Source: a virus. Taken from it: a stretch of DNA of 40,174 nucleotides. Location: positions 1 through 40,174 of the IMG/VR virus record IMGVR_UViG_3300006641_000012; one strand, given 5' to 3'. Positions 1 through 40,174 of this stretch are shown here, piece after piece (the first letter of the stretch is position 1; each line of letters starts with the position of its first letter). A model generated the notes under the pieces. It saw only the letters and a list, made by a program, of their open reading frames with translations. It searched no databases and was not told the origin of the DNA. The translations under genes and the position numbers were made by a program.

Positions 1-120
1 AGTATCAAAGTCAATCTCCACCATACCTGCTGCAAAGCCATAGGTGTAATACCAGTCTGCTGCCTGATACATCTGAAGTTGTAGATCAGACTTGTTGGCA
101 TAGTGGTTGGCAATGCGTGT
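1..120. repeat. Terminal direct repeat, left copy
   Basis: These 120 bases are identical to the last 120 bases of the window (40055-40174). The repeat lies inside the portal gene and the reading frame continues across the join. This is what an assembler leaves when a circular or circularly permuted genome is closed, so it is more likely an assembly overlap than a biological terminal repeat. The unique genome length would be 40,054 bp. Confidence 0.95.
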
Positions 121-9760: not shown

Positions 9761-10586
9761 CGAAGTTCACCCCCGGTCTTAGATCAGCCATGCCCTGAAC
9801 ATCTCGATCCACTATCTGGACTCGTGATGCATCGATACCCAGCGTTACAAAGTTAGATGCATCTGCTGAGTGTTCACCGAATCTATTCTTAACTGCTGCA
9901 ACCCTGAACTCCTGATACTCCGGGTTCATTGCAATAGATAAGATCATCGATGGAAGTTGCGAGGCCTTACCGAGGATTGCTCGGCGAGGTGCTGGCATCT
10001 TTGGATCTCCAGTTCCTGCCTCACTCATGTGAGTTAGTGCAAGAACACAAGCACCAGTCTTACGAGCCACATGGTGCAGCTCTGACATAATGGCTCTGAT
10101 ACCAGACCACTCTTCACCAGTAACAGATACACAGTTCATCAAGTTATCAATCACAATCAATGCAGGTGCCATGCCATAGACCTCGCCATAAGCGAGGATC
10201 TCTAGCTCGATTGCATCAATGTCCGGTGATGGATCAAAGACCCACTTAATATGTGAGCCTCTCTCCTGTAATAATGGATCAAAGTAATGTGAGTCTGCAT
10301 CCAAATATGTTTCAACCTGTTGCTGTGGTAGCCCAGTTAATCCAGCGACTGTTCTAAACATCTGAGTAATGGGGTCGGTATCCGCCGAGAAGTAAAGAGT
10401 TGGAACTCCTGTCTTCAAGGCGTATACCAACGCCATCAAACTCTTACCTGAGTTTGGTTGACCTGCGATAAGACACAACTGTGACTGACGGAATCGCATA
10501 CCATGCTGTCTAAGTCCAGCCCATACATCAGGTAAGGGTTTAGCAGAGGAGCTTGTGCTGTGAACTGCTTGCAGTAAGTTCAACAT
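9732..10586 (-). CDS. DnaB-like replicative helicase / RecA-fold ATPase
   Basis: 284 aa, only the ATPase core, without the DnaB N-terminal domain. Walker A GQPNSGKS at residues 42-49, Walker B ALIVIDNL at about 142-149, a LALTHMSEAG segment resembling the H3 motif and a late KNRFGEH that may be the arginine-finger/KNR region typical of DnaB. It should unwind DNA at the fork with the split primase. ATG 10586 overlaps the WhiB stop (TAATG). Confidence 0.8.
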   Translation of the reverse strand: MLNLLQAVHSTSSSAKPLPDVWAGLRQHGMRFRQSQLCLIAGQPNSGKSLMALVYALKTGVPTLYFSADTDPITQMFRTVAGLTGLPQQQVETYLDADSHYFDPLLQERGSHIKWVFDPSPDIDAIELEILAYGEVYGMAPALIVIDNLMNCVSVTGEEWSGIRAIMSELHHVARKTGACVLALTHMSEAGTGDPKMPAPRRAILGKASQLPSMILSIAMNPEYQEFRVAAVKNRFGEHSADASNFVTLGIDASRVQIVDRDVQGMADLRPGVNFVGLQAISGQ

Positions 10587-10864
10587 TAGGCTGCGACACT
10601 CCTCTTTCTTTCCAGTTTAAGTTCTTGACGGATCTTTCGCCGTTCGATTGCAGAAGATCCTCCCCAATAGTGGAAGTCTTCATTATGTAATGCCCAATTA
10701 AAACAAGATACTAATAGTGGGCAAGTGGCACACACATTACGAAGTGTTTCATAGTGTGAGAAGTCTCTTTCTTCTGTGCAGAAATGTTCATTACCGATAG
10801 ATGCACAAGCTTCGGTACCGGTGAAGGCCGGGTAAGAAGGCTTACCCGGCTCCACCAACGACAT
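10586..10864 (-). CDS. WhiB-family iron-sulfur transcription factor
   Basis: 92 aa from ATG 10864, which overlaps the previous TAA. The four cluster cysteines are Cys20, Cys45, Cys48 and Cys54 (C-x24-C-x2-C-x5-C), followed by the HYWGGSS turn (WhiB GVWGG loop) and a basic DNA-contacting tail ERRKIRQELKLERKR. WhiB proteins bind a [4Fe-4S] cluster and the major sigma factor and occur only in actinobacteria and their phages; in phages such as mycophage TM4 they repress host genes. This is the best host marker in the window. An in-frame 17-residue upstream extension is unlikely. Confidence 0.92.
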   Translation of the reverse strand: MSLVEPGKPSYPAFTGTEACASIGNEHFCTEERDFSHYETLRNVCATCPLLVSCFNWALHNEDFHYWGGSSAIERRKIRQELKLERKRSVAA

Positions 10865-11271
10865 TAAGAAGCGTTTGCTCTGAAGTCGCATTGCTGGCCC
10901 TGTGGTCGTGAGCAAGCATAGAAAGCACGATAAGGCTTTCCCGATGCCTTGGATACACCAGCAGGAACTTGCTTTGCTGGTTCTCCGTGCTTACATACTG
11001 GGCCGTTAGTAGGGGCAGCATTCGCTGGCTGACCCCATGCATCTTGCGGTGGTGTGATTACAGTTGCATTGAATGCTTGTGCAATCGCTTGCGTTGTCAT
11101 TGGTTGAGAGCCTGTGAAGGCGTTAGCCATGGCTTGTAGTAGCGACTCGGCACCACTTGGATCTAAAGCTTCTGCTAGTTTCTGTGAGAAGCCTTGATAT
11201 GTTGCATCTGCAATGACAAAGATTGTTCCATCGTTTGTCTTTGTTGATACTTGAAAGCCTAGTTCGGCCAT
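10864..11271 (-). CDS. Zinc-ribbon-tailed hypothetical protein, 135 aa
   Basis: The N-terminal half (MAELGFQVSTKTNDGTIFV...) is a small beta domain; the C-terminal 45 residues (VCKHGEPAKQVP, GKPYRAFYACSRP, QQCDF) resemble a zinc ribbon with Cys and His in C-x-H...C...C order. Similar tails occur in small actinophage proteins coded next to exonucleases. ssDNA binding is plausible but not shown. It ends on the WhiB start and follows the exonuclease gene by one base. Confidence 0.6.
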   Translation of the reverse strand: MAELGFQVSTKTNDGTIFVIADATYQGFSQKLAEALDPSGAESLLQAMANAFTGSQPMTTQAIAQAFNATVITPPQDAWGQPANAAPTNGPVCKHGEPAKQVPAGVSKASGKPYRAFYACSRPQGQQCDFRANAS

Positions 11272-23097: not shown

Positions 23098-24003
23098 TTA
23101 CCTCGTATAGTGGAGTCGGGGTGGATAAAGATCTCGAAGGCCAGCAGCTTCTTGCTGTAGTCGTTGCTGGTATAGACCAAGATAGAATCGTGCAACGGAT
23201 GTTCCGCCACCGATTGGCTTGGATTGATCCATCATGTCTGCTTCTACTGACTGAGAAGGAATTCGTGCAGCATCTGAACCAACGATAAGTCGAGCAATAG
23301 TTCCATAAACAATTACATCGATAGTAGATGATGGAAGACCGGTTACAGTCTCAAAGATGTCGCTTTCAGATGACATAACAGATGGGGCTTTTGCATAGAT
23401 AACCTGAACAGTTCTGCCCGGATCAATCATGTCAAAAATATTGATGGTCTTACCATTGGCAAATTCTGTTGTATTGGCAGTCTTGTCTGTGTCATACCTA
23501 CGGACATTGAGCCATTCCTTGGTTGAGCCAATGGTCTGCCACTTGACATTGAGGACATAGTCGGCAGTAGCCGGAAGTGAGTAGGCAGTAACGGCTGAGT
23601 TGAAGCTAAAGGTGTGTGTGCCTACCCCAAAGAGTTCTGGGTAGACAGCCAAGATTGTGTCGTTAATAGCCTGCTTGACCATGAAGCGTGGGTATTGAGG
23701 TGCAATTACCACCTTGGTCTGATTGGCCGCCGTAGAGGCTGTGGTGCCTCTAAAACCCCTACCCCAAGGGGCAAGGTAGACCTGCTTGGTTAGGTTGTCT
23801 GTTCGATCTACATACATCAGTTCAGAGCCAACCTCGATGATTCCACGGCCCATCTGGGCAGTCTCATTTACTACGAAGTCTGTGGCTGTGGTTGATGCAA
23901 TTCCACCGGATTGGTTAATCCAAGTAGCAGTCTCCTGCTGGGCCCCATAACTCTGGATCTGCCCAAGGACTCGTTCTACGATTCCGCCAAATGTTGTTGT
24001 CAT
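23098..24003 (-). CDS. Head-tail connector / tail structural protein
   Basis: 301 aa. The segment PRFMVKQAINDTILAVYPELFGV with following FSFNSAVTAYSLPATADYVL, then ARLIVGSDAARIPSQ and ARFYLGLYQQRLQQEA, has the helix-beta-helix layout of phage adaptor/connector proteins that sit under the portal. GRGFRGTTASTAAN in the N-terminal part resembles virion-attachment loops. Gene order, between small head proteins and the tail fibre, supports it. It may equally be a short-tail tube protein. Confidence 0.55.
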   Translation of the reverse strand: MTTTFGGIVERVLGQIQSYGAQQETATWINQSGGIASTTATDFVVNETAQMGRGIIEVGSELMYVDRTDNLTKQVYLAPWGRGFRGTTASTAANQTKVVIAPQYPRFMVKQAINDTILAVYPELFGVGTHTFSFNSAVTAYSLPATADYVLNVKWQTIGSTKEWLNVRRYDTDKTANTTEFANGKTINIFDMIDPGRTVQVIYAKAPSVMSSESDIFETVTGLPSSTIDVIVYGTIARLIVGSDAARIPSQSVEADMMDQSKPIGGGTSVARFYLGLYQQRLQQEAAGLRDLYPPRLHYTR

Positions 24004-24269: not shown

Positions 24270-24430
24270 TACTTAGCCTTTCTCTTTGCTGCTGCGTTAT
24301 CTACTAAATTTGGATACGGTCTTCCAGCCTTCTTAGCAGCAGCCTTAGCCTTTGCTTTCTGTGCCGGAGTCAATGGAGTAGATTTTTTATTGGGATTCTT
24401 TTTATCCCAGAATGCTGTTTTCTTTTTCAC
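24269..24430 (-). CDS. Lysine-rich basic protein, 53 aa
   Basis: From GTG 24430 (GTGA overlap with the DUF6321-like gene) the product reads VKKKTAFWDKKNPNKKS followed by PLTPAQKAKAKAAAKKAGRP and ends AKRKAK. Nearly a third of residues are Lys or Arg. It resembles histone H1-like tails and probably binds DNA or acidic virion surfaces. An upstream in-frame ATG (24451) is possible but would overlap the previous gene by 25 bp. Confidence 0.55.
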   Translation of the reverse strand: MKKKTAFWDKKNPNKKSTPLTPAQKAKAKAAAKKAGRPYPNLVDNAAAKRKAK

Positions 24431-24702
24431 CACTTCACCTTGTCTGCCCAATAGGCTGCTGACATTTTGCCCTTGGCAATGTTCTTAGCATGACGAGCTT
24501 TGAATGATTTCTGTCGTGCTGTTGGAGTCTTATCTCCAGATACACCCTGCTGCCCAAAGCGAATTGTCTTCACCTTGTCTCCAACCTTTGCAACCACAAC
24601 ATGAGATTTCGTTGGGTGTGATGGAGTTTTCTTTGGCTTGTTAAAGCCAGATACACCTGCCGCCTTTAGGCGAGAGTCTGGTTTACTTTTTCTTTCCGCC
24701 AC
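24427..24702 (-). CDS. DUF6321-like basic protein, 91 aa
   Basis: The sequence SRLKAAGVSGFNKPKKTPSH, KSHVVVAKVGDKVKTIRFGQ, SFKARHAKNIAKGKMSAAYW and ending ADKVKW is a close match in memory to DUF6321, found in many aquatic phages. Strongly basic; probably DNA-associated or internal to the head, role not established. GTG 24702 is proposed because earlier codons overlap the DUF6496-like gene and look shadow-like; about 20 bp of overlap remains. Confidence 0.7.
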   Translation of the reverse strand: MAERKSKPDSRLKAAGVSGFNKPKKTPSHPTKSHVVVAKVGDKVKTIRFGQQGVSGDKTPTARQKSFKARHAKNIAKGKMSAAYWADKVKW

Positions 24703-24853
24703 TCTTCTTGCCCTTCTTGGACATTCCTGCCTCTGACATCGCAATAGCAACTGCTTGCTTGCGAGATTTAACTACAGGGCCTTTTTTAGATCCTGAGTGA
24801 AGAGTTCCTGATTTGAACTCTTTCATAACCTTCTTGATCTTTGCTGGCTTCAT
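24683..24853 (-). CDS. DUF6496-like basic protein, 56 aa
   Basis: MKPAKIKKVMKEFKSGTLHS then GSKKGPVVKSRKQAVAIAMS and EAGMSKKGKK is the DUF6496 pattern (KVMxEFKxGxLHSGSKKGPxVxxRKQAIAIAxSEAG), common in phage genomes next to head genes. Lysine-rich, helical, role unknown. The ATG at 24853 overlaps the stop of the proteasome-like gene; its own stop lies inside the next gene. Confidence 0.75.
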   Translation of the reverse strand: MKPAKIKKVMKEFKSGTLHSGSKKGPVVKSRKQAVAIAMSEAGMSKKGKKSGGKKK

Positions 24854-25569
24854 TACTTCTTCTTGCCCATTTTCTTAGGCATAGCCTTCTTCTTAGGGCC
24901 ATACTCCATCATCTTTTCTTTCTTGCCTTCCATCTTTTCGTGCTTCTTCTTCATAGATGGTGACTTGTACTTCTCGCCTTTAACTGACATTTGCTTCTCC
25001 CTCTGAGTGATGACTTTGACTTTCCCACCGCTGTTTATGTCAAACGAGATGGAAATCTCTATTGCCTTACGAGCTTCATTAGCTGCTGTTCTTGTATTCG
25101 TTGGGGATAGTGTGGCTCTAGCCAATGCACCGAGTGCATATGAACTGCCAGATCCAACTCCATATATTCCACGATCATCTCTTACCCAAGAAAAGTCATT
25201 ATCAATTTGATAAATCTTTCCTCGAAGGCAGATCAATGCATCAAACCCTGCTCCGTCTTTTGGATCATTATCGGCAGTCTTAGGTGCTGGGTCATATCCA
25301 TAGTCTGCGTATGCTTGCTTAAGTGATGGCAATAAATCTGTCATCATAAATTTATCTAGGTTCACACCTCGTGGAATCTTGGGAGCATTCCAACTGTGTA
25401 GGGCTATATCCCCGGCGATTGCATCGCCAGCAAAAGCGATTACATACTCACCCTTTTCAACTACCTTATCCATACCTGTAGCAATAAACTTCTGATCTGC
25501 ACCCACTATTAGGGATTCGGCTGCGATTAAACCCCAGCCCTTACCTTGAATCCCAATTATGGTTGTCAT
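24853..25569 (-). CDS. Proteasome/HslV-like Ntn-hydrolase with lysine-rich tail
   Basis: 238 aa. MTTIIGIQGKGWGLIAAES is the start of a proteasome beta/HslV-type fold, with Thr2 or Thr3 as the exposed nucleophile; GMDKVVEKGEYVIAFAGDA gives the expected Lys and the AGD turn, and IYGVGSGSSYALGALA the GSGSxxA motif near the end of the fold. The usual Asp17 position reads Glu (AAES). After residue ~190 comes a Lys-rich tail (MKKKHEKMEGKKEKMMEYGP...) absent from bacterial HslV. No HslU ATPase is present. It stands between capsid and connector genes, so a prohead maturation protease is a reasonable hypothesis. Confidence 0.7.
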   Translation of the reverse strand: MTTIIGIQGKGWGLIAAESLIVGADQKFIATGMDKVVEKGEYVIAFAGDAIAGDIALHSWNAPKIPRGVNLDKFMMTDLLPSLKQAYADYGYDPAPKTADNDPKDGAGFDALICLRGKIYQIDNDFSWVRDDRGIYGVGSGSSYALGALARATLSPTNTRTAANEARKAIEISISFDINSGGKVKVITQREKQMSVKGEKYKSPSMKKKHEKMEGKKEKMMEYGPKKKAMPKKMGKKK

Positions 25570-25571
25570 AC

Positions 25572-25844
25572 TCAGTCCTTAAATGAGTTGTTGGTTGAGT
25601 CGAATGCCTTACCGGCTATGTTGCTTAGTTCGACTGCACCACGAATATCCTTCATGTTTGTTGTCGCTGGTTCAATGCCTTGATCGATAGCAGACTTGTA
25701 TGCATTTAATTCTGCATCCCATTTCTTCTGAGACATTAGGCGAGAACTATTGGCATCACCTGTATTGACCTGCAAACCTGATTGCTTTAGGCAATCACCC
25801 CAGTTTGCATGATCTTGCGTTGGGCAACCTGTTCTGCATCCCAT
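25572..25844 (-). CDS. Conserved actinophage head-region protein, 90 aa
   Basis: MGCRTGCPTQDHANWGDCLK, KKWDAELNAYKSAIDQGIEP and VELSNIAGKAFD are strongly reminiscent of a small protein next to capsid genes in many actinophages (CPTQDHxxWGxC...KKWDxELxxYxxARxQGIxPAxT). Function unknown, possibly a minor head component. Its three N-terminal cysteines could bind metal. ATG overlaps the preceding TAA. Confidence 0.65.
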   Translation of the reverse strand: MGCRTGCPTQDHANWGDCLKQSGLQVNTGDANSSRLMSQKKWDAELNAYKSAIDQGIEPATTNMKDIRGAVELSNIAGKAFDSTNNSFKD

Positions 25845-26155
25845 TAAACTATCTCCACTAAAAATCCATTATGGGCTATATTCGAATCGGAGTCGGCTTG
25901 AGCCTGAGTCCTGATTGGAAATCCTTGAGCTACAAGAATATCCTTCGTGGCTTCATTCACGATGTGACCTCGCCCACCGAGAAACACATAATCATAATCT
26001 CTAAGTTCATCTTCGGTAACTGCTCGAGATAAAGACAATTCACCATCGTTGATAAGCACAGCAACCCCTCGCTGGGATACGACTCTACGCCACCACTTGT
26101 CAGCTAATGGATAACCTTCCATTACCTGTGGTGGGTAAAATGTATAACTTGCCAT
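25844..26155 (-). CDS. Conserved head-region protein, 103 aa
   Basis: ATG 26155 (MASYTFYPPQVMEGYPLADK) has AGGAGAATC upstream, so it is chosen over an in-frame start 16 codons earlier. Later parts read RGVAVLINDGELSLSRAVT and DYVFLGGRGHIVNEATKDIL. Compact alpha/beta domain found adjacent to capsid genes in similar phages; probably a minor head or adaptor protein. Sits 60 bp after the capsid gene. Confidence 0.55.
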   Translation of the reverse strand: MASYTFYPPQVMEGYPLADKWWRRVVSQRGVAVLINDGELSLSRAVTEDELRDYDYVFLGGRGHIVNEATKDILVAQGFPIRTQAQADSDSNIAHNGFLVEIV

Positions 26156-26214
26156 GATTCTCCTTTTAATAGAGAGGGAGGCAGGTTGCCCTGCCCCCCT
26201 CAACTAATGCTCTA

Positions 26215-27138
26215 CTAGAGAGCAGATCCGCCTGTTTCCAAACGGCAAACTGCTGCATCACGGAAGATGCCCCAGCCACCGAAGTACTTCCAGCCAAGTG
26301 CTGACTTACGGCGAAGGATGTCGATCTGAGGTGCTACGACTGTTTGCACATCGTAAACATTAGCCTCAAGAAGAGCTTCCTTACCGACTGCAACTGCTGA
26401 GTAAACAGTAGCTGAAGATGCACCGGATGTTGTTGATGGAACACGAGATGTCTGAACAACTTGGAATCCTTCAAGAACACCAATGGTGCCTGTCAATAGG
26501 TTTCCAACATTTTCAGTTGTGTACTTGTGGATGTCCACAAATCCGCCTGAACCAGTCTCGGCACGAAGGTCGAAAGCTTGGCGTGGGTGGATGAACAATG
26601 TGTAAAGGTCACCAACACGAGGTTGGGCGTTAGCCTCAAGAAGTGTTGTCTGTGCCTTACGAAGCATTGCTGTTGAAAGAACATCTGAAGCTGTAAGAGT
26701 AGCTGTTGATGTACGGCTTCCACCGTACTTAACTACTGATCCAGATGTTAGTGCTGTTGCAACAAGCTGATCCAAAGTATCAGCAGCGTTGTAAGCGATT
26801 GCATCACCGATCATGGTGTCGATAGAAGAGAATGTGGCCATATTGACCTTCTCTGTCTGCTCAACAGCATTACCGTATTCAGTAACAGTAACTGTTACCT
26901 GTGATGGGTTTGCCAATGCAACTGGTGTTACATCAGATGTTTCTGTTAATGCTGTGGTTGCTGCTGCCAAGTTAGCATAAACTGCAAACTTGAGAGTAGT
27001 TCCCGGGTTGGTGAGGGCTACTGGTCGTACATCTGCGACTGAACGCATGACAGGAAGTGAGCGGAGTGCAGCTCTTACATATGTGTCATATGCATTGACT
27101 ACGAGGTTGCCTACACCAGAGATTTGAGTGGTTGCCAT
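26215..27138 (-). CDS. Major capsid protein, N4-gp56-like
   Basis: 307 aa. A capsid of HK97 fold and the N4-gp56 family: ALRSLPVMRSVADVRPVAL, GTTLKFAVYANLAAATTALT, TVTVTEYGNAVEQTEKVN, LYTLFIHPRQAFDLRAE and SALGWKYFGGWGIFRDAAVC follow the family order (N-arm, E-loop, P- and A-domain). It forms the icosahedral shell. Located directly after the scaffold gene, 21 bp apart. Confidence 0.88.
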   Translation of the reverse strand: MATTQISGVGNLVVNAYDTYVRAALRSLPVMRSVADVRPVALTNPGTTLKFAVYANLAAATTALTETSDVTPVALANPSQVTVTVTEYGNAVEQTEKVNMATFSSIDTMIGDAIAYNAADTLDQLVATALTSGSVVKYGGSRTSTATLTASDVLSTAMLRKAQTTLLEANAQPRVGDLYTLFIHPRQAFDLRAETGSGGFVDIHKYTTENVGNLLTGTIGVLEGFQVVQTSRVPSTTSGASSATVYSAVAVGKEALLEANVYDVQTVVAPQIDILRRKSALGWKYFGGWGIFRDAAVCRLETGGSAL

Positions 27139-27159: not shown

Positions 27160-27633
27160 TTAGTACCCAGCCTTACCAAGATCTGCAAATAATTGCTTCA
27201 ATGCTTCAGGCCCCTTTACAGCGGCCTCATCCATCTGGGCTTGAATCATCTGTTCACGATCAGCACTAATGCCGCCATCTACAGTTGCTTGAGCCTTTTT
27301 GTAATTATCTACGAAACCTTCTGGTATCGCTGAGTTTGATTGGTTTGGTTGTGACACACCGAATACATCTCCGTATTCAGTAAGCCATGACGACAACGAT
27401 TCCTCCGTGAGGTCGATGTCCTGTGGAATGAAAGCCGAAATCTTTGGATTCACTCCTCGAGCTGTAAGGACTTCTGAGATAGTTCTCTCTCGTTTTTCTT
27501 TACGCAAATTTTGAAGCTCTTCCTGAATTTCCTTCAGTTGCTTCTCTTTTGCCTTATTGGCCTTGCGTAGTTGTCCGAGAACATCGTTCGAATCAAGTTC
27601 GAAGTCATCCTCTTCCAGTTCGTAATTGGACAT
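27160..27633 (-). CDS. Capsid scaffolding protein
   Basis: 157 aa. Very acidic start (MSNYELEEDDFELDSNDVLG), a coiled coil (KANKAKEKQLKEIQEELQN) near residues 23-50, then a Gln/Glu-rich helical C-terminus (DREQMIQAQMDEAAVKGPEA). This acidic-coiled-coil design, and location immediately before the capsid gene, are characteristic of scaffolds that guide prohead assembly and then leave. AGGA precedes the ATG. Confidence 0.8.
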   Translation of the reverse strand: MSNYELEEDDFELDSNDVLGQLRKANKAKEKQLKEIQEELQNLRKEKRERTISEVLTARGVNPKISAFIPQDIDLTEESLSSWLTEYGDVFGVSQPNQSNSAIPEGFVDNYKKAQATVDGGISADREQMIQAQMDEAAVKGPEALKQLFADLGKAGY

Positions 27634-31195: not shown

Positions 31196-31986
31196 TATCG
31201 GACACCTGCAATCTTCGCTATAACATCGCCGTATGAATTAAGAGTCTTGTTGACCGCTTCTGTTTCTAACTCTGGGTTGGCCATGATTGCCTGTTCAACT
31301 ACTTGACCCTTACCAGCCATCGATAGGCCTCCAGTTGTTGTAGTTGAGTATTGACCCGGTGCTGTCTGTGTCTGTGTAGTGATTGAAGGGTTAGCCTTCT
31401 CAGCAGATGTAAGAGTTTGAAGCAGTTGATTGTATTCAGCATCACGAGGATCACGACCAAGTTTTGCACGAAGTGCATTCTGAACGATTGCCTGTGCTTC
31501 TTCTTTGGTTGAGATACTTGAGACTCTCTGAGTTGTTGTCTTTGGTTCCCCACCACCGGATCCAATGGCTGCTAACTTCTCTTGCCATGTTCGACCACCA
31601 TCAGCATTGGCTTCACCAAGAAGTTTCTTAAATGCTTCTGTGTCAGCCTTGCCCCAATAGGCAGTCTGAAAATCAGACTTAGCAAGTTGTCCACCTTGAA
31701 TCAAAAGAGCTTTAACTTGGTTCTGATCTGATAAAGATTTAATCTGTTCTCCAAGAATCTGATATACCTGAAGGTCTGAAACTTGATATAGGGCAGAATA
31801 AATCTTGCCAGTTACATCTGTTTTCTTACCAGTCTTAGGATCTGTAAAGACAACACCCGGGCGGAATACACCAGTTCCCTGTGCAGGATATGACTTGCCA
31901 CCACCTACTGAAGGTGCAGCATAAGGATTAGTTCCTGTTGGAACTTCCTTGGAATCATCGATTCCATTCTTGTTTAGATCAACCAT
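31195..31986 (-). CDS. Putative internal virion protein with EF-hand-like start
   Basis: 263 aa. Residues 3-14 (DLNKNGIDDSKE) form a calcium-loop like that of EF-hand/TSP3 modules. NPYAAPSVGGG and the NPYA motif recur in the LysM protein linker (NPYAAATSG), suggesting the four genes are a functional set. The body is helical, with repeated KxLL and NALRAKLGRDPRDAEYNQLL. Start overlaps the preceding stop (TAATG). Confidence 0.55.
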   Translation of the reverse strand: MVDLNKNGIDDSKEVPTGTNPYAAPSVGGGKSYPAQGTGVFRPGVVFTDPKTGKKTDVTGKIYSALYQVSDLQVYQILGEQIKSLSDQNQVKALLIQGGQLAKSDFQTAYWGKADTEAFKKLLGEANADGGRTWQEKLAAIGSGGGEPKTTTQRVSSISTKEEAQAIVQNALRAKLGRDPRDAEYNQLLQTLTSAEKANPSITTQTQTAPGQYSTTTTGGLSMAGKGQVVEQAIMANPELETEAVNKTLNSYGDVIAKIAGVR

Positions 31987-34900
31987 TAGTTATTTCCTGT
32001 CTCTGTTGCAAATACACGCCAGTACATTACAGAGAAATCTGGGTGTTCGGAGATTATCTGGTAAGCAGTTTGGTCTAACCATTGTGCTACATTTTCAACA
32101 GCTTTACCTGTAAGTGTCTTGTATCCTGCTTCTGCAACAGAATTCAACGCTGACTCACGAGCCTGTAAGAACTTAGCCAAGCCCTTACCTGATTCAGTTT
32201 CAGCAAACTTAGGGTTACTAAGAGCCTGAGTTACTTCTTTAACGAGTGTCTCACGAGGAACACCTGCTGCACGGAAGTCTGGCTGTCCACCAAAGTCATC
32301 ATCCATTGCTGCCTTACGAGTCATGTAGACCTGATGGGCTTGCTTTGGATCTGCACCCTGCTGGATAGCGATGGCCTCATCGCTTTGTAACTTAGCCTTA
32401 CGAGCTGTGTATACATAACGAGCCGCTTCCATCTGCATTTCAGCAGGTGATAACTTGAATCGCTGGCCACGCTGTGCTTGCCATTTAGCAAATTCTTGTG
32501 AGTATTGTCCACCGGGGAAGAAGAGGGCAAACGCATTTGGCAAGGCATTGGCATCCTTGCGGTTGTTCTGATAGAAGTTCCATGCATCTCCAGTAGGTGT
32601 AATACCACCACGAGATCCAGATACCAGAGCAAAGAGTGCTGACTCACCATACTTGTCAGCCCACTTGGCTACAGCAATTTCATAACTGTCTGGGTTGTTT
32701 GCACGGATCTGCAAGAAGTCATTGAACATAAGAGCCTGAACATGGAGTTCACCTTCTTTGTCCTTAGCAAGAATCTGAGGTGCAATAGATCCGGGAGCCA
32801 CATTCTGTGTAATACCACGCCATAAAGCGAGGACTCGATTGACCTTACCTGCATCTTCTAGAAGCTTTGCTTGTGCTTCTCCACCAAGTGGGAAGTCTCC
32901 ATAGTTACCAGTTGATGCAAGGTATGTCATCAATGGTCGAAGAGTAGACATACTCTTCTCCTCGAATGAGTTAACACCTAGACCATAAAGAACTCGCTGG
33001 GCCCAAGCAGGGGTAAATGACTCGACAATTCCAGTCTTACCTTCAGGGGCTCCGAATGGATAGATCACATTGCGGAGTTGATCTGCCGCCCAACCTTCTT
33101 GGCTCTGAATGATTCGACCCAATGAGAGTTGAATAGCAGGGCCTACACCCGGTAGCAATTCATTGCTGAACGCAAGGTTCAAAGATGGAATCGATAGCGA
33201 TGTTGGCATCGATGGAACTGCTTCACCTGTTGCTGTTGAAAGCATCCAGCCAAGTGCATTACCTGCTAGAGGGATAACCATACGAGGATCACCATAGGTT
33301 GGATCCTTGTAGATAAATCCTTGGCTTGGGTCATTCCAGTTCTGACCAGTCCATTCGTAAATGACACCAGTCTCTGGATGAGTCAAGAATTCAAAAGCAT
33401 TAGCAGCCTTGTAAGTACGAGCCTTGCCTTGTAGACGGAAAGTATTGGCTACATCTGTGCCAATTAACTTACTCCATGTAGCAATAGTGTTACCCCACGC
33501 TGCTGCAAAGGGAGCCACTAAACGAGCTGCAACCGCATACTGCTTCTGTCGCATTGCATCATAGTAAAGCTTCTGTAGTTTGTTAGCAGCAAAGTTATTT
33601 GCGATTGTATGCATATCATCAGCAGCAAGTCCTCGATCATCGAGTGTCTTGATTGCTTCACGCATACGAACCAATGATGGGTTTTCAAACCCTGCCTTAA
33701 GTCCAAAGACTTTAACGCCACGAAGTTCCTTCTCAGCAATAGCAAGGATCTTGACTGCCTCATCCTTGGTAAGAAGGTTCATATTCTCTGCAACACCGTT
33801 CCAGTATTGCTGCTTAAACTCTGGGCCAAGTGCTGCTCGCTTTTCAATCGATGCAGAGACTTGGAAGAACTTAGATGCTGCACGATCCCATTGACCCTTG
33901 AATGATGCAACGGCACGGACATCATCTGTTGGAAGCTTGAGTTGACCGATAGCCTTTGAGATGTCTGTTGAATCAACATATCCCTTAAGGATATTGGCAA
34001 GCCATACATCCTTTGACTGAGTTCCCTTTGGATTGAATCCGGGAGTTCTCTTGCCATCTACAGCAACCATTGCCTTACCGGCAATAAAGTCACGCAGTTC
34101 TCGGCGGCCACCAGATAGGTTATCGACACCTTCTGTAACTACCTTGAAGTAATTCTCCATAGCTTGACGAGCAATAGCCTCATCTGCATCAAGCATCAAT
34201 GCACGATTAAGTTCATCAACCTTGGCAATCTGTGTACGAAGCAAGATTCCCTGCTCTGTCTCAAACATAAAGTCAACAATGAACTTCTCGTAATCACGAG
34301 ATAGATCCATGCCTTGTGCTTGCTTTTTGGCAATGAAAGATTCTGCCTCTTTGAACCAAGGAGTGAACTTTCCATTTGCACCCTTGATGCCACCATCAAG
34401 TCCACCTGCAACTAGACGAGCCATAGCTGACTCACGGAACTGAAGGATTGCTCCGGCCCATGCCCGATTGAATCCTCGTTCTTCTGGTGTAATGAAACGC
34501 ATACCGGTAGGCAGGATCTGTGAAAGACCACGAGTGCCTTGACCCATACCAACACCGATAGATCGAGACATCATTACGGCAAACTTATCTGCATCTGCAA
34601 GTGCTGCTGACTTAAAGCCGACTGCATCAAGCTCTTCAACTGCTTTATTAAAGTTTGTTCCAAAGACTGTGTTATCGAAGCGAGACCAGCGACTAGCAAA
34701 CTTAGCGATTGCATTACCCTCTGGGTTAGCCATCATCATTGCAGCAAACTGCAATGGGTGATTGAACAAGGTTGTAGATCCACCAAGGAATGAACGAACC
34801 TGCATATCACCAACATTTCGTAGGATGTATGAAACACGACCTACGAGAACTGTCTGCTTGAAGAATGAATCGAATAGATCAGTAGTTACTGTTCTGAGTT

Positions 34901-37895
34901 GCTGTGCATTTTGTGACTGTGAGAAAAGGTTTCTAGTCTTTCCTGTGAGCTGACGGATTGAGTCGATGTCAGGCCACTTGATAAAATTTGCAAGTTGAGA
35001 GTCAATAAGCGGATCCAACTGAGTGAACTTCTGGGTCTTTCCAGCGACCTTAAATTCTCTTGTGCCTATGTCCTTGCCAGCAACTTGTGCCAAGAACTTT
35101 CGGTTAGCATCTGCTTCCTTCTTAAATACTCGAGCCGCATCATTAAGCATACGGATTTGTTCTTCTGTTAGGTTAGGAGCCTTCTCCTTAACCAAAGACT
35201 TAAGCGTGTCAATGAATACATTGAAGCGTTCAGTCGAGGTTGTAGCAGCCATCATTGCCTTAATGGATGTCTTCTGTAGTTCAGGAGATGCCTTAAGGAA
35301 TGGTAAAGTGTCATTCATTTCCTTGACCAATGTATCTACATCGTCTAGGTGAATAAGATTCTTAGTAGGTGCAAACCGTGTGAATGGTGCAGTTACTTTA
35401 TTAGTCCTCAAGAATGATCGTGCTTCATTCTCTGCGTTAAGCAGGAAGTTAGCAAAGCCTTCATGGTGCAACTTCAATGAGTTAGGGGCATAGAAACTTG
35501 ACTGGAACTGGATTGCACGAGATTGAGCTGCAAGTCCAACTCTAGTTCCACGAGATAGTTCTAGTCCGACTTCACCGGCAAGTAATCCCATAACTTCTTT
35601 TTCAGAAGTAGCAGCAGCCAAACGCTTGGCTAGATCAACCGTGATGTTGCCATTCATTGCTCGCCATAGATCATCGTATTGTTCTGGGCCATAGTGGACA
35701 GCAATAAACTTTGCAGCGTTCTGACCCATTGGGCCAAAGAATGCTTTAGCAGCTTGCTGGTAATCAAGGATCTGCTTACCACCTATGGTCATAAGACCAA
35801 ACTCTGCTTCCATCGCTAATTGCTTGCGACCTCGTGCCTCTTCAAGAAGCATACGAGCCTCATCATCAGACTTGACTCGATCTTGAACATACTTAAGATT
35901 ATTCTTCCAAGCCTCTTCAGCCTTAGCAAGTTCCTTTTGGACACCTTTTGTAACCTTGCCCATTTCGGAAAGCTCTTTGTTTATGTTGGCAAGTTGTTCC
36001 ATGACTGTAAGGCGAGGTGCTGCTGCACCTTCGACTAGCCCTGTAACCTGCTGGGTAATTGCACCCTTAGTTGTAAGTGCTTGAACACCAAGATCGTTGA
36101 TGTCAGGTGAGTTAATAGCATCAGCCTTGAAGCGACCAAAGTCAGAAATCTTTGCATCGAACGGATCTACTGTTCGTGGGAAGTAAGCGTATCCGCCACC
36201 ACCCATGCCACGAGTTGCACCAACATTTTCAAAGCCTTGGATACCGGCTCTTTCATATGCTGCAAATAGTTGTTCTGTTAGTCCAGCCTTCTTTGCCGAA
36301 TCAATAAGTTCTGCGTGTGTTGCACCGGGTGTATCGATTACATCGAGAACAGTCTGCAACTTAGACTCTTGGATACCAGCAGCAGTTCCAATATCAATAA
36401 GGTTGGAACCAATCTCGTTAGATACACGAGTTGCCTGTGGTGAATCTCCAGCCTTGATAAGACCTGTCCACTTGATAAGGCGTGGCTTCTGCTTTGCTGC
36501 TACACGAACTACAGCATCTACTCCATTACGGATACCTTGAGTTGCTGCACGATCACCCTTCTTAAGGGCTGCTTCATCAAGAGTATGGATAAGTCCGGGA
36601 GCCAACTGCTCTTGCTCTGTGAGTGTTTGTCCTACACGGACTACCTCATCAAAACCTTTTTCATCGAGGATGCTTTGAACTTCTGCTGCACGACCAGCAG
36701 TATTAAGTTCAATACGGTGAGCCATAAGGTCTTCAGCCTTACGAGCCTGTCCAACAAGTTGACCACTTGTATCCTGTGCAGACTTAAGTCCTGCAAGTAA
36801 AGTGTCACGCTGTTGGCGGAGTTGACCGTATTCTGCATCTAATAAATCTGCTTCAGACTTTGCTTTGTAATAAGTCTGGTATGTGTTATCTACTTTTTCG
36901 GCGATAGTGTTGAGATCATCTTGATGCTTGATGATGTCTGCTTCAAGCATATTGATGTCGCCAGATGCAGCTCTTGCTTCTGCACGGACTTTACCGACTT
37001 CACCCATGACATCTTCAACATCACGAGCCACAGCCTTGATCGGTGCTTCCTTCGCTTCTGCTGCACGAGCTGCGGCCTTTGGCCCAACACGAAGTGTTAC
37101 GCCAACCTTTCCAGCTTCTTTACCGATCTTAAGTAAACCTACACCGGGAACATAAGTAAGTGGGTCTGCTGCTAGGTTAAGAACGAATCCTGAAACCGCT
37201 TGGAATGTTCTAGCGGCTTTAGTCTCTGGGTTATCGAATAATGCTTGTGTGAGTCCACTTGAATAAGTCCAAGGAACTCCACCCTTCATAGTAGGGCCAG
37301 CAGCAATCTTTGCATTAAGTAATGCTTTACCTACCGCAGAGTTTTGATCTGCACCAAGAAAACCAGTACCTACATCAATCTTGCCTGTTTTGAAAAGGTT
37401 GATAAGAGCTTGCCCTGTTTGAGTCTCATCAAGAACATTCATGCCACCCTTGCCAGATACACCGTTACGAACGGTGGCTTCTAGCATTTCAAATGGTGTT
37501 GATAAAAGCATGAAAGCAGTACGAGTAAGTGGTGCTAAGAAGTCAGCAGGTGAACCCTTCTTTGCAGAGTTCTGTTCTTTCAACTTAGCAGCAGCAGCAA
37601 TGGCTGCGTTACGCTGTGCATCAATCAATGCTGATCCATCGAGTGTGGTCATAGCATTGGCTGTATTGCCACCGATAGGGGCTCCAGATTTTGTAAGACC
37701 CATTACGGTGCCGACAGATGCAGCAGGGTATGCCTTAGCCATAGCAGCTAACTGCTTGGCAAAATCTGGACTTAAATACTTAGATTGCTGGGCTTGAATG
37801 TATGTATCGTAAGCTGCTGTTCCTTCTTGAGGAATTGAACTTAACGATGCACCGAGACTACCAGCACCAAATGTGCCTCCGGTTTTTCCTGCCAT
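31986..37895 (-). CDS. Giant virion protein (putative ejection protein), 1969 aa
   Basis: The largest gene, one-seventh of the genome. A flexible N-terminus precedes coiled-coil regions (~290-420, ARAASGDINMLEADIIKHQD...) and a largely helical body; a conserved-looking block is GVQKELAKAEEAWKNNLKYV. There is no clear transglycosylase or polymerase motif. Size, helicity and location just after portal-adjacent genes fit T7 gp16-like or N4-like proteins that enter the cell to form a DNA channel; vRNA polymerase as in N4 was considered, but no catalytic motif was found by eye. Confidence 0.65.
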   Translation of the reverse strand: MAGKTGGTFGAGSLGASLSSIPQEGTAAYDTYIQAQQSKYLSPDFAKQLAAMAKAYPAASVGTVMGLTKSGAPIGGNTANAMTTLDGSALIDAQRNAAIAAAAKLKEQNSAKKGSPADFLAPLTRTAFMLLSTPFEMLEATVRNGVSGKGGMNVLDETQTGQALINLFKTGKIDVGTGFLGADQNSAVGKALLNAKIAAGPTMKGGVPWTYSSGLTQALFDNPETKAARTFQAVSGFVLNLAADPLTYVPGVGLLKIGKEAGKVGVTLRVGPKAAARAAEAKEAPIKAVARDVEDVMGEVGKVRAEARAASGDINMLEADIIKHQDDLNTIAEKVDNTYQTYYKAKSEADLLDAEYGQLRQQRDTLLAGLKSAQDTSGQLVGQARKAEDLMAHRIELNTAGRAAEVQSILDEKGFDEVVRVGQTLTEQEQLAPGLIHTLDEAALKKGDRAATQGIRNGVDAVVRVAAKQKPRLIKWTGLIKAGDSPQATRVSNEIGSNLIDIGTAAGIQESKLQTVLDVIDTPGATHAELIDSAKKAGLTEQLFAAYERAGIQGFENVGATRGMGGGGYAYFPRTVDPFDAKISDFGRFKADAINSPDINDLGVQALTTKGAITQQVTGLVEGAAAPRLTVMEQLANINKELSEMGKVTKGVQKELAKAEEAWKNNLKYVQDRVKSDDEARMLLEEARGRKQLAMEAEFGLMTIGGKQILDYQQAAKAFFGPMGQNAAKFIAVHYGPEQYDDLWRAMNGNITVDLAKRLAAATSEKEVMGLLAGEVGLELSRGTRVGLAAQSRAIQFQSSFYAPNSLKLHHEGFANFLLNAENEARSFLRTNKVTAPFTRFAPTKNLIHLDDVDTLVKEMNDTLPFLKASPELQKTSIKAMMAATTSTERFNVFIDTLKSLVKEKAPNLTEEQIRMLNDAARVFKKEADANRKFLAQVAGKDIGTREFKVAGKTQKFTQLDPLIDSQLANFIKWPDIDSIRQLTGKTRNLFSQSQNAQQLRTVTTDLFDSFFKQTVLVGRVSYILRNVGDMQVRSFLGGSTTLFNHPLQFAAMMMANPEGNAIAKFASRWSRFDNTVFGTNFNKAVEELDAVGFKSAALADADKFAVMMSRSIGVGMGQGTRGLSQILPTGMRFITPEERGFNRAWAGAILQFRESAMARLVAGGLDGGIKGANGKFTPWFKEAESFIAKKQAQGMDLSRDYEKFIVDFMFETEQGILLRTQIAKVDELNRALMLDADEAIARQAMENYFKVVTEGVDNLSGGRRELRDFIAGKAMVAVDGKRTPGFNPKGTQSKDVWLANILKGYVDSTDISKAIGQLKLPTDDVRAVASFKGQWDRAASKFFQVSASIEKRAALGPEFKQQYWNGVAENMNLLTKDEAVKILAIAEKELRGVKVFGLKAGFENPSLVRMREAIKTLDDRGLAADDMHTIANNFAANKLQKLYYDAMRQKQYAVAARLVAPFAAAWGNTIATWSKLIGTDVANTFRLQGKARTYKAANAFEFLTHPETGVIYEWTGQNWNDPSQGFIYKDPTYGDPRMVIPLAGNALGWMLSTATGEAVPSMPTSLSIPSLNLAFSNELLPGVGPAIQLSLGRIIQSQEGWAADQLRNVIYPFGAPEGKTGIVESFTPAWAQRVLYGLGVNSFEEKSMSTLRPLMTYLASTGNYGDFPLGGEAQAKLLEDAGKVNRVLALWRGITQNVAPGSIAPQILAKDKEGELHVQALMFNDFLQIRANNPDSYEIAVAKWADKYGESALFALVSGSRGGITPTGDAWNFYQNNRKDANALPNAFALFFPGGQYSQEFAKWQAQRGQRFKLSPAEMQMEAARYVYTARKAKLQSDEAIAIQQGADPKQAHQVYMTRKAAMDDDFGGQPDFRAAGVPRETLVKEVTQALSNPKFAETESGKGLAKFLQARESALNSVAEAGYKTLTGKAVENVAQWLDQTAYQIISEHPDFSVMYWRVFATETGNN

Positions 37896-38698: not shown

Positions 38699-40174
38699 TT
38701 AAGCCGCCCCAGTCAGGGAAGCTAAAAGATCAGCCATCGGTGGGGTTCCACCTTGTGCTAGATCAGTTCTACGAGAATACTGGCCGGGGCCAGATACCAT
38801 TTGGGAACCGGCAGCCGGGGCCGCTCCCGGAACCCCCATAGGGGGTTGCGAAGCACCGGGGGCCATCGCAGTCGCTGCCGGTTGTTCTACTGGAGCAAAC
38901 GCTTTAGAAACGATTGACTCCAATGCTTGACCTTTTGCTCGACCTTCGATGATGTCGGCGAGCCTCTTAACAGCTTCTGTTGGATCCCCACCCTGAGTAG
39001 CAAGCATTGGGATTGCGTTTGCATATTGTGCTACTGCGGTTCTTAATGAGTCACGAAGTTCTTCGATGTCGATTCGTTGTTCTTCTTGTGTGACATTGAT
39101 TGAGAATGGAAGATTGCGGCGGAGGAAGTCACGAGAAATCAACTTATCTCCACGAAGTTGCAATCCAAAGATTGCGGCACGGTTAGGATCTAGTCCTGCC
39201 ATGAGGCCATACTGGACATCTACTGTGTAATCACCATTGATGTCTCGTGATGGAATGTATTTTAATTCGTATGGTGTTCCGTCATCGGATCCACGAATAG
39301 TCTTCTGAGTTGAACCAAAGATTTGCTCATCTACACAGAATGCAATACCGATAAGATTTACAAAGAAGCGAGCAAAGACTGCCTGTGCTGCCTTGATCTG
39401 TGAATCGAAGCCACCCATAAGGGCTTGAACGCCACGACCTGTAACGATAGATGCATCGATCTGACCTGTTCGACCTTCTGGATAACGAGATCCCATACGG
39501 AGTTCTCGTTCAAGGTTCTGTGTTTCAGCAAAGACTCCGTTAGGAAGTTCGATTGGAACTCTACGGATTCTCTCTGGTGTGTTAGATCGAAGCAAAGCAT
39601 CTGGGCCAAGGGTAAATTCTTGGACATCTGGTGGAATAGCGATAGGTGCATTGACTGACTTCTTCGCTGCTTCAAGCTGAAGGAGTGCAAATCGAGCCTT
39701 AGCCATCTGAACTGGTAGGACATCATCGAACTGACCACGAGTTTGACCATCAACTGTTGGTCGTTCTGCTACATCTACAAGAATTTTGCCTAGAAGATTA
39801 GGGGTATTAGATAGAACTAGGTTATCTAACTCCGGTAAAAAGATTAAATCTTGATACTTATCATGGTAGCGAACCATGGAAATCGTAGACTTCATACGAT
39901 ACTTGCTGTTGATCTGAGCCTTATACTCTGGATACTGGGCAGATAAAGTCTCTGAATCAGTCATAATGATCTGAGCCATTGAAACTACTGAGCCAAAGCG
40001 ATCCTTTTCAAAGTAAAGACCGAAAGGATTGAGCATACGAATGCGTGGATTGTTAGTATCAAAGTCAATCTCCACCATACCTGCTGCAAAGCCATAGGTG
40101 TAATACCAGTCTGCTGCCTGATACATCTGAAGTTGTAGATCAGACTTGTTGGCATAGTGGTTGGCAATGCGTGT
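38699..40174 (-). CDS. Phage portal protein, main part (N-terminus at 1-399)
   Basis: 451 codons belong to the unique genome; the last 40 codons at the right edge repeat 1-120. The full protein is 584 aa. The body has LNPFGLYFEKDRFGSVVSMA and ARFALLQLEAAKKS, then FTLGPDALLRSNTPERIRRV, and PEGRTGQIDASIVTGRGVQA, consistent with portal clip/wing/stem elements. The C-terminal ~60 residues are Pro/Ala/Gly-rich (PGASQPPMGVPGAAPAAGSQ), probably disordered. It lies directly downstream of terminase and upstream of the internal virion proteins. Confidence 0.85.
   Translation of the reverse strand, partial: TRIANHYANKSDLQLQMYQAADWYYTYGFAAGMVEIDFDTNNPRIRMLNPFGLYFEKDRFGSVVSMAQIIMTDSETLSAQYPEYKAQINSKYRMKSTISMVRYHDKYQDLIFLPELDNLVLSNTPNLLGKILVDVAERPTVDGQTRGQFDDVLPVQMAKARFALLQLEAAKKSVNAPIAIPPDVQEFTLGPDALLRSNTPERIRRVPIELPNGVFAETQNLERELRMGSRYPEGRTGQIDASIVTGRGVQALMGGFDSQIKAAQAVFARFFVNLIGIAFCVDEQIFGSTQKTIRGSDDGTPYELKYIPSRDINGDYTVDVQYGLMAGLDPNRAAIFGLQLRGDKLISRDFLRRNLPFSINVTQEEQRIDIEELRDSLRTAVAQYANAIPMLATQGGDPTEAVKRLADIIEGRAKGQALESIVSKAFAPVEQPAATAMAPGASQPPMGVPGAAPAAGSQMVSGPGQYSRRTDLAQGGTPPMADLLASLTGAA
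40055..40174. repeat. Terminal direct repeat, right copy
   Basis: Exact copy of 1-120, beginning AGTATCAAAGTCAATCTCC in both cases. Marks the circular join; see the left copy for the interpretation. Confidence 0.95.

Follow-up and report, generated by a model that had tools for sequence, protein, structure and literature searches.

A proteasome-type threonine hydrolase kept in the head module of freshwater actinophages and its possible part in head assembly

Introduction

Why would a phage keep a proteasome-like protease among the genes for its head? The question is raised by an open reading frame (ORF) in a viral DNA of 40,174 nucleotides (hereafter the window, meaning the whole stretch that was analysed), which an initial annotation, made from the letters alone, read as an Ntn-hydrolase of the proteasome beta/HslV type. 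Neither the enzyme family nor its occurrence in phages is new: both were on record by 2021 at the latest (PMC8665760). In that year, Fuchs, Alva and Lupas described AAH and PPH, group I proteasome homologs of tailed phages with no AAA+ partner and no assigned function; PPH has ~140 residues and misses the second helix, H2, and in their survey AAH was found in no phage specific to actinobacteria, nor was the gene context informative (PMC8665760). Searches of the literature for a function of phage proteasomes returned only that paper and passing mentions.

What is new here is a strict head-module context in actinophages with two interchangeable slots, the replacement of the gene in place by divergent homologs, and what a lysine-rich tail really is. 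The hosts, 'Ca. Nanopelagicales', are among the most abundant freshwater bacteria. The strict context gives a concrete hypothesis, assembly-coupled proteolysis, that is testable in E7 and F5 (LanE43AprE7 and LanE43AprF5; OX376640, OX376641), cultured Planktophila phages of this host group (PMC10202952).

Results

The protease gene lies in the head module of a complete actinophage genome

The first and last 120 bases of the window are identical, so that it is circularly closed and represents a complete phage genome. A WhiB gene (10586-10915) and relatives among the cultured Planktophila phages (E7, F5) place the phage with the actinophages. The ORF, of 238 aa, occupies exactly 24853-25569 as first annotated, with the strand now corrected to minus. 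Its protein starts with MTTIIGIQGKGWGLIAAES, contains all three motifs that had been singled out (GMDKVVEKG, AGD and GSGSSYA) and ends in 45 Lys-rich residues. The gene order on the minus strand is scaffold-like protein, MCP, g119, g90, protease, DUF6496, g107, g60, g89 and adaptor, which confirms a place between capsid and connector (Table 1). The initial annotation had also named DUF6496 and DUF6321 proteins as Lys-rich neighbours; the former was recovered, and the latter was found in none of the small neighbours when these were compared with Pfam.

Table 1. Positions of the protease gene, its parts and its neighbours in the window
Feature	Position	Strand	Evidence or remark
Direct terminal repeat, 120 bp	1-120		identical to 40055-40174
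Head-tail adaptor/connector	23098-24003	-	PF24175 SU10_adaptor E 4e-4, under its cut-off; phrog_7578
g107, basic protein	24427-24702	-	phrog_7595 5e-36; start GTG 24702 by comparison with relatives
DUF6496 small basic protein, next to the protease gene	24683-24853	-	PF20106 E 4e-10
Small basic cassette MSVKGEKYKSPSMKKKHEKM...KKK, 45 aa, joined in frame to the protease	24853-24990	-	stand-alone in L052, L058, E7 and others; pLDDT < 50
Shine-Dalgarno-like AGAGGGAG 5' of the internal ATG	24997-25004	-	duplex energy -9.4 kcal/mol
N-terminal-threonine hydrolase domain of the proteasome type, residues 1-193; predicted nucleophile Thr2, the mature Thr1	24991-25569	-	Pfam/PHROG, AlphaFold2, Foldseek, catalytic census, dN/dS
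g90, conserved head-module gene directly upstream of the protease	25572-25844	-	phrog_10483, synteny
g119, conserved head-module gene	25844-26203	-	phrog_8987, synteny
Major capsid protein (MCP), N4-gp56 family	26215-27138	-	TIGR04387 2e-34, phrog_1357 3e-64
Acidic coiled-coil-like protein, 157 aa, putative scaffold from its place upstream of the MCP	27160-27633	-	phrog_7813, no assigned function

The core is an Ntn-hydrolase with BPH as its closest solved structure

The ORF is matched by PF00227 (Proteasome) at 6e-5, with 23.1 bits against a curated cut-off of 22.4, and by phrog_1040 ('peptidase HslV family') at 4e-25, and several hundred relatives of the protease are present in IMG/VR. Its similarity to the proteasome family is far beyond chance. 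When a profile of 26 relatives was compared with the PDB, the matches were BPH (6e-12), HslV and proteasome beta chains. The AlphaFold2 model of the protein has a core with a mean pLDDT mostly around 90, and the last 45 residues, below or near 50, are predicted to be disordered. Foldseek comparison of the model with the PDB returned 1183 matches at E <= 0.001, the best 50 of which were all BPH, HslV or proteasome; BPH came first, followed by proteasome beta5 and HslV. At the same threshold, 32 viral predicted structures matched the model. Judged by sequence and predicted structure, residues 1-193 are an Ntn-hydrolase of the proteasome beta/HslV/BPH type with an alpha-beta-beta-alpha sandwich fold. 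The comparison with HslV and proteasome beta subunits that had been proposed at the outset thus agrees with Pfam, PHROG and the profile alignment on the family first named.

The protease is not HslV proper, since its scores with the HslV equivalog models NF003964 and TIGR03692 (22.4 and 21.4 bits) are far under the cut-offs of 137 and 157.75 and since no HslU-like ATPase accompanies it. The absence of an HslU partner had been remarked upon earlier, and across the complete window genome no AAA_2 or AAA match, of the kind that an HslU/ClpX-type unfoldase would give, was found. The AAA match in genomes of the E7 type is a single ORF of 260-276 aa, distant from the protease; an unfoldase partner may be supplied by the host. 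The protease is not PPH either, because the model places helices at residues 50-59, 71-89, 142-150 and 159-176 of the 193-aa core, and both helix pairs are therefore present.

The first-ranking solved structure, BPH (betaproteobacterial proteasome homolog; PDB 5ovs/5ovt/5ovu), superposes on the model with a TM score of 0.78 by target length and an E-value of 3e-10. BPH resembles the window protease in its N-terminal Thr and in having neither a propeptide nor an unfoldase partner, and has as its own class features a tetradecameric assembly with an acidic cavity. It assembles into a 14-mer to which epoxomicin binds, with no unfoldase partner apparent (PMC5777263). In contrast, the identity between the two proteins is ~22%, and the window gene is a phage head-module gene known from sequence and model. 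Among cellular organisms, no relative of the protease was found in the GTDB genomes scanned, and only weak homologs, 28-30% identical, on Rhizobium plasmids.

Active-site residues are conserved

In the profile alignment with BPH and HslV, the residues Thr1, Asp17, Lys33, Gly47, Ser129 and Asp166 correspond to Thr2, Glu18, Lys35, Gly48, Ser140 and Asp177 of the ORF. All of the 62 distinct core sequences compared have Thr1, Lys33, the oxyanion Gly47, Ser129 and Asp166, and either Asp or Glu at position 17. The free N-terminal Thr predicted earlier is therefore kept in homologs, with Thr2 aligning with the mature Thr1. The Glu in place of the usual Asp17, which had been listed as an anomaly, proved to be normal: Asp/Glu17 is an accepted member of the triad in proteasomes (PMC4792962), archaeal Glu17 is on record, and the 62 relatives divide into 28 with Glu and 34 with Asp. 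The idea that the Glu betrays a changed catalysis was rejected on these grounds. The median pairwise dN/dS of the 62 distinct core sequences is 0.062, which places the core under strong purifying selection.

Four proteases encoded after the portal (L164, L168, L170 and L176; see below for this slot) do not keep the Asp166 equivalent (ARVSAYTAAP) and keep Thr1, Asp17 and Lys33; altered catalysis is possible in these proteins, as judged from their residues.

The protease occupies one of two head-module slots

Every window-type locus that was reached by way of the protease has the order MCP-g119-g90-protease-basic-(DUF6496)-g107-g60-g89-adaptor. To remove the bias of this search, loci were also collected through the MCP instead of the protease, and those reaching 2 kb or more downstream, 73 in all, were counted. 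By a simple pattern, the gene was found in the slot after MCP-g119-g90 in 71 of them; in the other two, the very same slot is filled by divergent proteasome homologs. In phages of the E7 type, including the cultured E7 and F5, the protease gene comes directly after the portal gene; 13 long records of this type were collected by their MCP, and 11 of them have the gene. The record G031 starts just past the portal slot. On G030, an E7-like contig of 35.9 kb, no recognisable copy was found in either slot and a different ORF follows the portal. A single copy per genome was counted in all of the 20 relatives examined. Combined, these results identify the protease as a near-obligate head-module gene of these actinophages, present in one of two slots; the tie to the head module drawn at first from one genome is borne out by synteny, by the loci found through the MCP and by the portal slot of E7-type phages.

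The ORF in the portal slot of G030 (L343:2589-2858) encodes 89 aa with a Lys/Arg-rich start.

Slots and protease lineages do not coincide. At the loci L336 and L337, the portal slot holds proteases of the same lineage as that of the window, and the protease of L340, in the MCP slot, groups with those of L338 and L339, in the portal slot. A single clade for all MCP-slot proteases was rejected (AU p = 1.4e-4), indicating that different protease lineages have been placed into the same head positions; the window and E7 lineages as one clade gave a p of 0.23 in the first trees. Slot and lineage thus appear, from the trees, to be partly independent, a proteasome homolog being kept where the actual gene is replaced or moved.

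The portal-adjacent protease of E7 and F5 is ~33-35% identical to that of the window and of the same enzyme kind; it differs in its place right after the portal and in carrying no basic fusion. The 'HslV' of Actinomycetia phage DSL-LC01 (OQ999401) is 34% identical, keeps Thr1, Asp17 and Lys33 and has a basic C-terminal extension of its own. Its gene, unlike that of the window, is found outside the head module, among small unannotated genes adjoining WhiB, several kb upstream of the terminase. Among named phages, XacN1 has its homolog near dCMP deaminase and NAPRT, Vibrio phages near RNR and PhoH, Pumpernickel near ThyX and MazG, and VpV262 where the non-structural region ends; in LeeroyJenkins and D'Alembert the homolog is found beside a separate capsid maturation protease. 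The named phages thus mostly have their homolog outside the head module, and the head-module habit belongs to this actinophage group. It is in this fixed context, and in being actinophages, that the present phages differ from those with AAH and PPH surveyed in 2021 (PMC8665760).

The lysine-rich tail is a fused small gene

The ~45-residue Lys-rich tail attributed to the enzyme is present, with 45 aa, and turns out to be a fused adjacent small gene that is not intrinsic to the enzyme. Behind the protease, the sequence of this basic cassette is either MSxKGEKYKS...KKK or an alternative MPxVGxK...KKK. It is fused in frame at 58 of 83 loci and separate at the other 25, where it overlaps the protease gene in the +1 frame (15) or follows a stop codon (10). 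In E7 and F5 the basic gene stands alone after g90, which in E7 is far from the protease. A strong Shine-Dalgarno sequence precedes the cassette ATG at all 83 loci, with duplex energies of -7.8 to -10.4 kcal/mol, and partly overlaps the codons for the conserved TQRE end of the protease; the internal ATG of the window, at 24990, has the strongest value of the 367 in-gene ATGs scored. The stand-alone relatives, together with the cassette's own start and ribosome-binding site, indicate that a small basic gene, joined in frame, makes up the tail. From the signal at ATG 24990, the fused and the free basic protein are probably both made. A functional part of the enzyme was considered for the tail and rejected, since it stands alone in relatives and since cassettes of the MSxKGEKYKS, MPxVG and MAAAKK types are swapped behind one ribosome-binding site. 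Phages of the L079 type are fused within an otherwise unfused group, and fusion or fission therefore occurred at least twice.

The junction illustrates well how one gene boundary can be in frame, overlapping or stop-separated among close relatives, and it warns against taking such tails for enzyme domains.

The protease of Vibrio phage 166E36-1 (L095:4833-5816) is extended at its C-terminus by a long acidic stretch, the reverse of the basic cassettes.

Discussion

A possible role in head assembly

That related phages almost always keep the gene in the head module suggests a role in head building. We consider, with a probability of about 0.45, that the protease is a BPH-like ring that works without an ATPase, is expressed late and has the scaffold or unassembled head proteins as its substrate. 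We read residues 1-193 as a group I proteasome homolog, of the HslV/BPH kind, with an active-type site. What the sequences or a model show is the homology, the fold, the residues of the active site, purifying selection, conservation of the slot and the fusion; the ring, the activity, the substrate and the dual translation are what we infer beyond that. Removal of Met would expose Thr2 as the nucleophile, Lys35 (Lys33) would serve as the base, Glu18 (position 17) would orient Lys35, and Ser140 and Asp177 would handle the N-terminus. By analogy with BPH, the enzyme would probably form a self-compartmentalising ring, which, with no ATPase partner, would degrade polypeptide that is unfolded or flexible. 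As a product of the late head operon, it would most likely digest the scaffold or unassembled or misfolded head proteins during prohead formation, and the strong internal ribosome-binding site would direct synthesis of the basic protein in both predicted forms, fused and free.

The place of the E7-type gene after the portal is that of head maturation proteases of the ClpP-like, S78 and U35 types, whose fold is unrelated to the proteasome type; in HK97-like phages, the prohead protease gene comes directly after that for the portal. To our knowledge, no class with a threonine nucleophile serves in phage head maturation. The MCP has no obvious N-terminal pro-domain, its alignment to the N4-gp56 model beginning close to the model's first position, which makes classical capsid cleavage less likely than action on scaffold or unassembled proteins. 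The wider family is not a family of maturation proteases, since LeeroyJenkins and D'Alembert carry a separate one. We regard as unlikely the more far-reaching proposal that in these freshwater actinophages, an abundant group, the prohead or scaffold protease is a threonine protease of the proteasome type, acquired on more than one occasion by the two head positions and bearing an in-frame dual-start junction to exchangeable basic cassettes.

Several facts speak against this reading: the homologs of most named phages lie near genes of nucleotide metabolism or other non-structural genes, G030 has no recognisable copy, and a position in the late operon fits a general late-expressed protease as well. 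Such a protease would degrade host or damaged cytosolic proteins for amino acids or stress relief, the head operon setting its timing only. The neighbours RNR, ThyX, MazG, dCMP deaminase, NAPRT and PhoH in other phages do suggest that the wider family serves in metabolism or takeover, and host-protein degradation is among the functions annotated for E7 and F5 (PMC10202952). However, this explanation, which we find rather unlikely, accounts neither for the near-constant retention of the gene in the head slot nor for the repeated placement of divergent lineages in the same two head positions.

The basic cassette could instead point to a protease packaged in the virion, where the cassette would bind DNA or the acidic scaffold and the enzyme would act in the head or after ejection; the several Lys-rich small proteins encoded nearby and the fusion in many relatives speak for this. 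The cassette is, however, separate in the 25 loci described above and the aligned E7-type proteases are tailless, so the tail is dispensable for enzyme function, and a ring of ~300 kDa, if built of 14 subunits as in BPH, would be a large cargo. Packaging is accordingly improbable in our view. That the gene is an orphan moron or an inactive remnant, without any particular role, would be in keeping with the scattered distribution of the family across phages and with its absence from G030, but is very hard to reconcile with invariant catalytic residues, a dN/dS of 0.062 and near-universal retention in place, and we give it hardly any weight. Action of a late-expressed, BPH-like protease on scaffold or unassembled head proteins is the reading we prefer.

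Other genes of the window

Three further genes deserve mention. The g107 proteins (~90 aa) of the window phage and of the cultured phage E7 share 90% identity, against only 42% for their MCPs; this conservation is unusually high for a small protein with no assigned function. An ORF of 1969 aa (31986-37895, minus strand), with no Pfam or PHROG match, is in the position of an ejection or internal virion protein, and its counterpart in E7 has 1764 aa. Lastly, the segment 14926-16344 (minus strand) encodes a protein of 472 aa made up mostly of Pro-Glu and Pro-Ser-Pro-Thr repeats after a signal-like N-terminus.
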